Assembly: GCA_030446715.1 (NCBI GenBank)
Contig: JAUJMU010000001.1
Location: forward strand, 124,001-188,000
Source: Cytophagales bacterium
GTDB taxonomy: Bacteria > Bacteroidota > Bacteroidia > Cytophagales > 172606-1
Reading direction: 5' to 3'
DNA length: 64,000 bases
In this document: one piece after another, positions 4,012-12,701 of the stretch
Layout: every line of letters starts with the position of its first letter
How positions within the stretch are numbered: the first letter of the stretch is position 1
The notes under the pieces: generated by a model
Database searches by the model: none
Seen by the model: only the letters and a program-made list of their open reading frames with translations
What the model was told of the DNA's origin: nothing
Program-made: the position numbers and the translations under genes

Positions 4012-5332
4012 TTATACCCCGGCAGTTACGGGCCTTCTTTTGCCCAGCATCCGCGTCAGGAAAAACAGCCCGACGGCAAAGAAAACTATCAGGGCAAAGA
4101 GGCTGTTGCGCATATTACCGGTGGCATCGGTGATGAGGCCGTAAGCCGCCGTCCCGAGTACCGTGCCGGTCTTTTCGGTAAACTCGTAGAAGCTGAAGTA
4201 GGAAGCGGTATCGGTCGTTTCGGGTAGCAGCTTGGAATACGTGGCCCGCGACATGCTCTGCAAGCCCCCCATGATCAGCCCGACCACTACCGCAAGGGCG
4301 TAAAACTGGCCGGCCGTGATCACGAAATAGGCGCCTACGCAGATAAAAATGCACAACACAAGCGCCACCGTCAGTGTCTTCAGGTTGCCGATTCTGGCCG
4401 AAATGCGGGTGAAGCCCCACGCCCCCACAATGGCAATCAGCTGAATCACCAGCAAAACGCCGATCAGGGCTCCTTCTTCCAGCCGCAGTTCCTGCGCCCC
4501 GAAGATACTGGCAAGGTACATGATCGTCTGGAAGCCCATGCTGTAGAAGAAGAAGCCCAGCAGAAAACTGGTCAGGTGCGACGTTCCGCATACTTCCCTG
4601 AACACTTTTCTCAATTCCTGAAAACCTTTGAACAGATAACCGGTATCGCCCGGATCACGGGCTACCGTGGTGCGGGCCGGCAGGTGCACAAAAGTGTAAA
4701 TGGAAAAACCAATCCACCAGATGCCAACCGACAGGAAAGACAGCCGGGCCGGCAGCGTGCCCGCATCTTCGCCTAAACCGAACCAGCCGGGCTTCTGGAT
4801 CAGCAGCAGATTCAGGATCAGCAGCAGCACGCTGCCGATATAGCCCATTGAGAATCCGCGGGCACTGATCCGGTCAAACTGGTCGGGTGTGGCAATCAGG
4901 GGCAGGTACGCGTTGTAAAACACCAGACTGCCCGCGTATCCGATGCTGGCTACCATAAAGCAAAGGATGCCCAGCGTGGTATTTTCTCCCGTAGCCCGGG
5001 GTGGTATTTACACCCCTAAAAAATAATAGCATTCCGCAGGCGACTTACCCCAGCCACACAAATGCCTGCATGAACGCCTTCTTGCGGTCACTTTAAGCGT
5101 CAATGCCTGAAAGCCGGGGCCACAGAAAACCGCCGAACAAAAACGACAGGGAGAGGGCGTAGGAGTAAACAACCGGGTTGTCTTTGGCAATGCCCAGAAT
5201 GCTGATGGATTTCGGAGCAACCGAACTGAAGTAGATCGGAAAAATTGCGGTCGTAATGGTCAGGTTGTAGGCTGAGTTGGCCCAGTCGTACATGCACCAG
5301 GCATTCACTACTTTCGGGTCGTTCTTTTCCAT
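4012..5332 (-). pseudogene. UMF1-family MFS transporter, disrupted
   Basis: The N-terminal piece (5332-5093, 79 aa) begins [20 protein letters not shown], the hallmark start of UMF1/ATG22-like MFS transporters. The C-terminal piece (4956-4012, 314 aa, about eight membrane helices) continues the same family in another frame. Between them, reading the first frame gives SGIDA, a TAA stop, DRKKAFMQAFVWLG, a second TAA stop, VACGMLLFF, then a frame change. The frame change coincides with a diverged 25-bp tandem duplication. A full protein would be about 430 residues. With two in-frame stops and one frameshift within about 110 nt it cannot make a complete transporter. Substrate unknown. Confidence 0.85.
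4970..5019. repeat. Diverged 25-bp tandem duplication in the UMF1 pseudogene
   Basis: 4970-4994 and 4995-5019 share 19 of 25 positions, with the core GTGGTATTT in both. A period of 25 (one more than a multiple of 3) accounts for the frameshift in the transporter gene. Confidence 0.65.
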
Positions 5333-11311: not shown

Positions 11312-11476
11312 TTGAGACTTTAGATTTTAGACGGGAGACAGAAGAGTCTGACGCTGAAAGAGCTGCCCGGCCGCGAGGTCGGGCAGCTCTTTTTTCCGCC
11401 GTAGCATTAACAGATCTTATCATCCGTTGCACAGTCTGGAGTCTCACATCCAACGTCTGAGGTCTTAAGTCTCCTT
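11312..11476. repeat. Degenerate GAGAC/GTCTC-type intergenic repeats
   Basis: 11312-11345 is purine-rich (gagactttagattttagac, then gggagacag), and 11429-11476 carries the opposite-strand version (gtctggagtctcacatccaa, then cgtctgaggtc). They flank a terminator between convergent genes. The same degenerate words recur at other gene ends in this window. Confidence 0.6.
11357..11396 (+). terminator. Rho-independent terminator
   Basis: AGAGCTGCCCG (11359-11369) pairs with CGGGCAGCTCT (11380-11390), followed by TTTTT. It ends the sensor gene. Confidence 0.85.
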
Positions 11477-12110
11477 TAAGGTAAGCCGGGTCAGTAACCG
11501 GCGCAGGCCTTCTGCCTCCTCCACCGAACGCATGGGCGGCAACTGCAGCCACGCCCTCCGCAGCTGGTTGATTTCTGTTAAATGTGGCTGCTCGTGCGGG
11601 CTCAGGCGGTGCCAGATGCAAACCACAATGGCCGTTTTCAGGGTGCTTGCCTTTACGCGGATGCTGAAAGGAGAATAACGCGCCGGGTGAATATGCGCGT
11701 AGCTACCCGGCACCTCACCCCAGCGCAGCACCCATTCTGACTGGTCAGAGAGCGTCACCAGCCGGTAACCGCCGGCGGTCTGCAACCAGCCGGCGTACGC
11801 ACCTGGCTCCAGCAGGTGATATTCCGACAGGTACCCGGCAACCCCTTCTGCAATGGCCGCGGGAAGCAAGGCACCGGTGTATACATCCATCTGCGAATTG
11901 CCAAGGGTGGTGAGCCGGGCGGCCACTTCCGGCATTACAGTTTCGCCCTGAAGTGCGTGTTCTTCAATAAATGTTCTGATCCATAAAAGGTGGTGCCCAT
12001 TTCCGCATCACGGCGTCGCCCCGGAGTGCGTGTTCTCCGATAAAAGATCTGATCCATAACAGGTGGTGCTTGAGCGGATGGAAAAGCACCGGTGGGTGAA
12101 CGGAGTCCAT
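11465..12110 (-). pseudogene. Conserved hypothetical gene disrupted by tandem duplication
   Basis: An intact 156-codon frame (11935-11465) begins MPEVAARLTT. Upstream, the minus strand codes for MDSVHPPVLFHPLKHHLLWI from an ATG at 12110, then RSFIGEHALRGDAVM, then runs out of frame. The segment coding HHLLWIRxFIxEHALxG is present twice with a 73-bp period, and the second copy reads in frame into MPEV. The ancestral protein therefore probably began at 12110 and had about 190 residues. Today a product could only start at 11935, missing about 35 residues. No function known; it contains a conserved-looking HIHPARYSP segment. Confidence 0.65.
11943..12068. repeat. Diverged tandem duplication, 53-bp copies, 73-bp period
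   Basis: 11943-11995 and 12016-12068 align over 53 nt with about nine differences (both start TCGCCC and end GGTGGTG). Similarity continues more weakly into the sequence between the copies, with a one-base gap. Confidence 0.85.
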
Positions 12111-12116
12111 AGATTT

Positions 12117-12701
12117 TCAAATCAACAGGGCCGGAACCATCAGTGTCAGCAGCAGAAACATAAGGGCGTGTATGTGCAGCATAAAGGTCAGATGCTCCAT
12201 GTCAATAATGCCGGGTTTGCCTCCCCCACCCCTGAAAGTCAGCACTGAATCTACCTTCCGGAACTCAGCCTCCGAAAGTCTGGCCTGCAAACTGCGTCTC
12301 ACCTCTGCCTTCACCGAGTCTGCCTGCGTGGTACTGCTTGCGGAAGCTTCCGGCAGGATAGGCGAAGCGCCCCCGATTCGGTTGACGGTCACCAGCGACA
12401 TTACTGAAAAATAGAGAAGGCTGATAAATAAATACAGCCGCAGCGGATGCATGTAGCGTACCCGCCGGCCAGCCACGAACTCGACCGTCAGGTAGCCGGG
12501 CCTGAGCAAAAAAGGGTAGATTGTTTTTACGAACCGGGAGTCGTACGAAAAAAAATCACTGATTACTTCAATGGCCAGCGTGCCAAACGAAGCCAGCTTG
12601 TCGGAATTACGCTGGCTGCACCGGGGGCAATAATCAAAGTCCGGCTCCAGCGGATAACCGCAGTTCTGGCACCGCGGGTTCTTGCGGAGGGTTTTGGGCA
12701 T
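12117..12701 (-). CDS. DUF3667 domain-containing membrane protein
   Basis: 194 residues. It starts with a zinc-ribbon-like pair of CxxC motifs (CQNCGYPLEPDFDYCPRC), followed by the DUF3667 core: FFSYDSRFVKTIYPFLLRPG, GRRVRYMHPLRLYLFIS and two membrane segments. Function of the family is unknown. The protein ends abruptly after a second hydrophobic segment (LLLTLMVPALLI), so it may be shorter at the C-terminus than relatives. The next gene on this strand originally started at 12110. Confidence 0.8.
   Translation of the reverse strand: MPKTLRKNPRCQNCGYPLEPDFDYCPRCSQRNSDKLASFGTLAIEVISDFFSYDSRFVKTIYPFLLRPGYLTVEFVAGRRVRYMHPLRLYLFISLLYFSVMSLVTVNRIGGASPILPEASASSTTQADSVKAEVRRSLQARLSEAEFRKVDSVLTFRGGGGKPGIIDMEHLTFMLHIHALMFLLLTLMVPALLI

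Follow-up and report, generated by a model that had tools for sequence, protein, structure and literature searches.

Short tandem-duplication mutations that lead to pseudogene formation are known in bacteria. Gene fission into complementary pieces is reported for the split cox2 gene of wasps (PMC9895450). We analysed a 64,000-nucleotide stretch of DNA from a Cytophagales bacterium (assembly GCA_030446715.1, contig JAUJMU010000001.1; hereafter, the window), in which a gene carrying a diverged tandem duplication invites comparison with both systems.

The tandem duplication and the split gene

The affected gene lies on the minus strand as the second of a gene pair, behind a gene of the DUF3667 family, and carries the duplication at its 5' end. 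A self-match scan and gapped self-alignment placed two copies head to tail on the minus strand with a period of 73 bp, copy 1 at approximately 12069–11998, sharing the frame of the original start, and copy 2 at approximately 11996–11924, in register with the gene body and shifted towards A+T. The 73-period duplication was absent from the Tandem Repeats Finder output at score 40, and its detection relied on the self-match scan, where it scored 45, compared with a best score of 18 in one of ten triplet-block shuffles of the window and lower scores in the other nine. The preliminary description of two copies of about 53 nucleotides with a period of 73 bp is thereby confirmed, and the duplication is real and well above the shuffles. 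The identity of about 83% given there was slightly too low for the 53-base cores (11943–11995 and 12016–12068), which differ at seven positions (87% identity); of the first 63 bases of the copies, 52 are identical (82.5%). An ungapped comparison over 75 bases gave 80% identity, and the gapped alignment comprises 73 columns with a single one-base gap, the missing base being in copy 1. Both copies encode HHLLWIRxFIxEHAL, as had been noted and as seen in the minus-strand translation. A 251-base query spanning the duplication had only one genomic match, a search of the source genome did not find a second copy of the gene, and a plasmid search returned no match.

The ATG at 12110, six bases past the DUF3667 stop codon, is the original start. 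Only 48 codons are open from this ATG before the stop at 11966–11964 (48-codon frame with its stop codon, 12110–11964, minus strand), in agreement with the earlier claim that a duplication with a period of 73 shifts the frame and breaks the gene start. The gene body of 156 codons runs from its first ATG at 11935 down to 11465 on the same strand, and its frame is closed upstream by an in-frame stop at 12010–12008. The two frames overlap from about 12007 to 11967 and jointly cover the complete ancestral protein. The original reading frame is disrupted, as in a pseudogene. The 156-codon frame starts after an invariant Lys-His-His, so that K-H-H is found in the separate 48-codon frame, and the body frame has only HH, which precedes its first ATG and lacks the K. 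In the window gene, the invariant residues K14, H15 and H16 and the body thus occupy different reading frames.

The gene family, its relatives and the partner gene

Proteins of about 180 residues make up the widespread family to which the gene belongs (loci L010–L074; window 11465–12110). Our Pfam and NCBIfam searches yielded no name for it, and no named family in Pfam, NCBIfam or PADLOC scored above cut-off with either the gene body or the ortholog. When public genomes were scanned with a pattern, 92 stretches were returned, 65 of which encode a relative; the full frame was read at every pattern match to count them. Among these 65 loci, L010, L017, L018 and L038 seem to be repeats of the genomes G001, G003, G006 and G055, and the L010 protein matches that of G001, a genome of the same genus as the source, at 100%. 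In the structure alignment A3, which took in 54 of the 65 loci, K14, H15 and H16 (L010 numbering) are invariant, together with D51, Y53, G55, D98, H115, H117, P118, R120, R127, N156 and R159, giving the family signature of an invariant KHH and HxHPxR. The window body belongs to this family by homology and by its invariant residues, and it keeps all 18 columns after its first ATG that are conserved in at least 90% of the other sequences.

Structure prediction for the G001 ortholog (L010) gave a confident fold (pLDDT 95). A PDB search with this structure produced no match as good as E 0.001, and among the matches listed the best re-aligned Z-score was 4.1 over 54 residues. The family profile gave only weak matches to solved structures, the best being a membrane protein binder at E 0.0068. 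DUF6972 (PF22319) was considered and rejected, as it matched one of the 54 members at E 0.01 and 16.7 bits against a Pfam cut-off of 27, and a likeness to RelE/ParE/HigB-type toxins (Z-scores of 2.4 to 3.0) was too weak to use.

All 65 relatives' loci, the same-genus ortholog included, contain KHH exactly once per stop-to-stop frame. In G001 the ortholog spans 185 codons in a single open frame, contains the segment once and is located directly behind a longer DUF3667 gene; the gene order is the same as in the window, and the gene beyond the pair is also common to both. G005 likewise has one in-frame KHH segment. Apart from the source genome, the gene was found in four of seven family genomes (G001, G003, G005 and G006), and there was no match in G002, G004 or G007, of which G002 is 75% and G007 72% complete. 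A wider search matched six of 59 relatives, the source genome being among the six. No ortholog with both segments in frame was found among the loci examined, and the single in-frame segment in all 65 is the reason why we take the duplication to be private to one lineage. The two copies are far closer to each other than either of them is to the G001 ortholog, which implies that the duplication postdates the split from G001. On the sample of sequences examined, it looks private to the source lineage. Among the titles listed in a literature search, none concerned such a case.

The upstream partner (12117–12701, minus strand; Pfam PF12412, E 5.3e-18) is shortened by internal deletions in comparison with its relatives. 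Its product has 194 amino acids, compared with 351 in G002 and 355 in G001, counted from the matching ATG, and the stop-to-stop DUF3667 frame of G002 (363 residues) aligns to the window only at residues 1–178 and 274–293. L162 and L164, whose longest frames are not DUF3667, were left out of this comparison. The window DUF3667 gene is still open, the internal deletions having preserved the frame. In G002, which belongs to the same genus, no relative of the second gene was found in the 921 bases beyond DUF3667 or elsewhere in the 75% complete genome.

The transporter gene and the genome-wide scan

The preliminary description drew attention to two genes within 8 kb that are broken by the same kind of duplication. 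The other one is an ATG22/MFS transporter gene (4012–5332, body 4012–4956, minus strand) about 7 kb from the 73-period duplication. It is open in relatives, with 448 amino acids in G004 and a single frame across the region in G001; the L159 row was left out of the first comparison, and the gene was re-examined separately. Relative to the intact G004 protein, the window gene switches frame at 5018–4986, overlapping a 25-base repeat at 4969–5018. A second broken gene at a repeat is accordingly real. A common cause for both genes is less supported: the match score of this repeat is only 15, and the transporter gene additionally has two in-frame stops. Matches of this strength with a period of 15–30 number six in the window, against none or one per shuffle (n = 20), so that the 25-base repeat is above chance, yet not alone in the window. 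The interpretation of a diverged duplication breaking a gene start stands for the 73-period case, where all 65 relatives are single-copy.

The genome-wide scan that had been proposed was carried out over 800 kb of the source genome for whole-unit duplications with a non-triplet period and a score of at least 24. It identified five duplications, including the 73-period one, and no general excess of frame-shifting tandem duplications was seen in these 800 kb. Two of the five consist of exact 55-base copies and have the appearance of assembly joins. These exact period-55 tandem duplications are located at G000:C18:306270–306381 and 736427–736536 (L090 and L131), and each shifts the reading frame, the second in a gene that we take to be a LolC/E-type permease. 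Being of equal length (55 bases), they are more suggestive of assembly joins at k = 55 than of biology. Another of the five has no open frame of 100 codons across the repeat; at G000:C18:121224–121357, a 44-base repeat in about three copies (78%) is crossed by no 100-codon open frame. Yet another is weak (67 bases, 72%) and extends only marginally into frames without established homology. The same scan over 400 kb each gave three duplications in G003 and none in G004, a rough comparison given their GC contents of 0.38 and 0.40 against 0.53 in the source genome.

Probable gene decay and competing explanations

It is demonstrated that the duplication exists, that the relatives examined lack it, that the frame is broken and that the partner gene is damaged. 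We consider it probable that a lineage-specific short tandem duplication broke the second gene of the cluster, and that this gene is decaying after the cluster began to lose function. In the DUF3667 two-gene cluster, the tandem duplication would have arisen close to the 5' end of the second member. Since copy 2 stays in register with the ortholog and copy 1 is shorter by a single base, the first unit probably measured 74 bases and arose by ordinary slippage or end joining. The protein would have lost, or been cut off from, its invariant KHH segment, and the break would have been tolerated because function was already being lost from the cluster, leaving the gene to decay. The lost interior of DUF3667 and the missing second gene in G002 make decay the simplest reading, and the broken transporter 7 kb away is counted in its favour. 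As gene decay, the locus would be one more ordinary case.

The composition of the copies complicates this picture. At all nine sites where the copies differ between G/C and A/T, copy 2 has A/T (two-sided sign test, 0.004). Its GC content is 0.41 and its third-position GC is 0.38, compared with a third-position GC of 0.71 in the body and 0.70 in an intact neighbour gene. Composition is as usual in copy 1 and in the body, and the A+T shift is confined to copy 2. Coding windows as low as copy 2 on both GC and third-position GC make up 0.3% of 6925 from 406 genes of like composition, and 1.2% at codons 15–35 of the same genes. The identification of copy 2 as the changed copy rests on composition, the only same-genus outgroup being too far and too GC-rich to settle it. 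The 18 conserved columns kept in the body, together with the A+T shift of copy 2 alone, resist the reading as a plain dead gene, and the unchanged third-position GC of the body beside that of copy 2 counts against plain decay. No stop interrupts the 156 codons of the body, an outcome that a neutral simulation at the divergence of the copies gives 17% of the time. The lean of the copy differences towards third positions, described below, likewise speaks against decay, although the amino-acid differences do not fall significantly short of expectation.

An unlikely alternative is that the duplication arose in frame, as a 75-base unit giving a tolerated 25-residue repeat, with the copies diverging while coding until recent single-base losses broke the frame. 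The differences between the copies do lean towards third positions (7 of 11, P = 0.039), with dN of 0.11, dS of 0.69 and a dN/dS of about 0.16, and the one-base gap in copy 1 and the intact body point in the same direction. This origin, however, requires a second, invisible loss at the junction and leaves the A+T drift of copy 2 alone unexplained, and the amino-acid differences between the copies (5, with 7.2 expected, P = 0.095) are not significantly few.

Decay must also be weighed against gene fission, which is about as unlikely as an in-frame origin. The products would be a 48-residue N-terminal peptide and the 156-residue body, co-translated from one transcript, with copy 2 as a spacer turning into a new translation start and evolving towards A+T. 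Both frames together spanning the whole ancestral protein, and a shift in composition restricted to copy 2 at nine of nine sites, would be consistent with such a split. With a start profile built from 313 genes and applied to the 20 bases before each ATG, the score before the ATG at 11935 is 0.04, compared with −7.2 at the equivalent place in copy 1. That score, however, reaches only the 19th percentile of the 313 starts, while lying at the 86th of 2530 internal ATGs, and the predicted folding at this ATG (−16.3) resembles internal sites (mean −16.7) rather than starts (mean −8.8). The pattern of copy 2 would fit a spacer or a half-made start, but it would fit drift equally. If both pieces were translated and needed, the locus would represent a one-step route to bacterial gene fission, caught mid-course with a translation start under construction.

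Quite improbable is the joining of copies from two diverged alleles or paralogs by misaligned recombination, with a divergence older than the break: the composition of copy 2 is unlike both flanks, as such an event might predict, but the body attached to it has normal composition, the genome contains no paralog and no donor is known. Programmed frameshifting, in which both frames would yield a single protein containing two copies of the segment, would make use of the frame overlap but is highly improbable, as no classical slippery site was seen there by eye, and none of the 65 relatives has the segment twice. An assembly or sequencing error is equally improbable: the same assembly contains the two exact 55-base duplications resembling joining artefacts, but copies 18% apart are unlike the products of such errors.

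With decay as the preferred reading, the most likely account is an old duplication, private to the lineage, that split a small conserved gene beside other damaged genes. As a mutation it is ordinary; its mild interest lies in the intact body and in the movement of copy 2 alone. The locus resembles bacterial tandem-duplication pseudogenes in its head-to-tail copies, non-triplet length, broken frame and damaged neighbours, and differs from them in that its copies are 18% apart and the downstream frame is still intact. Compared with the split cox2 of wasps, the first piece of the window gene has only 48 codons; the two share the feature that the coding information is kept, in the window gene in two frames.
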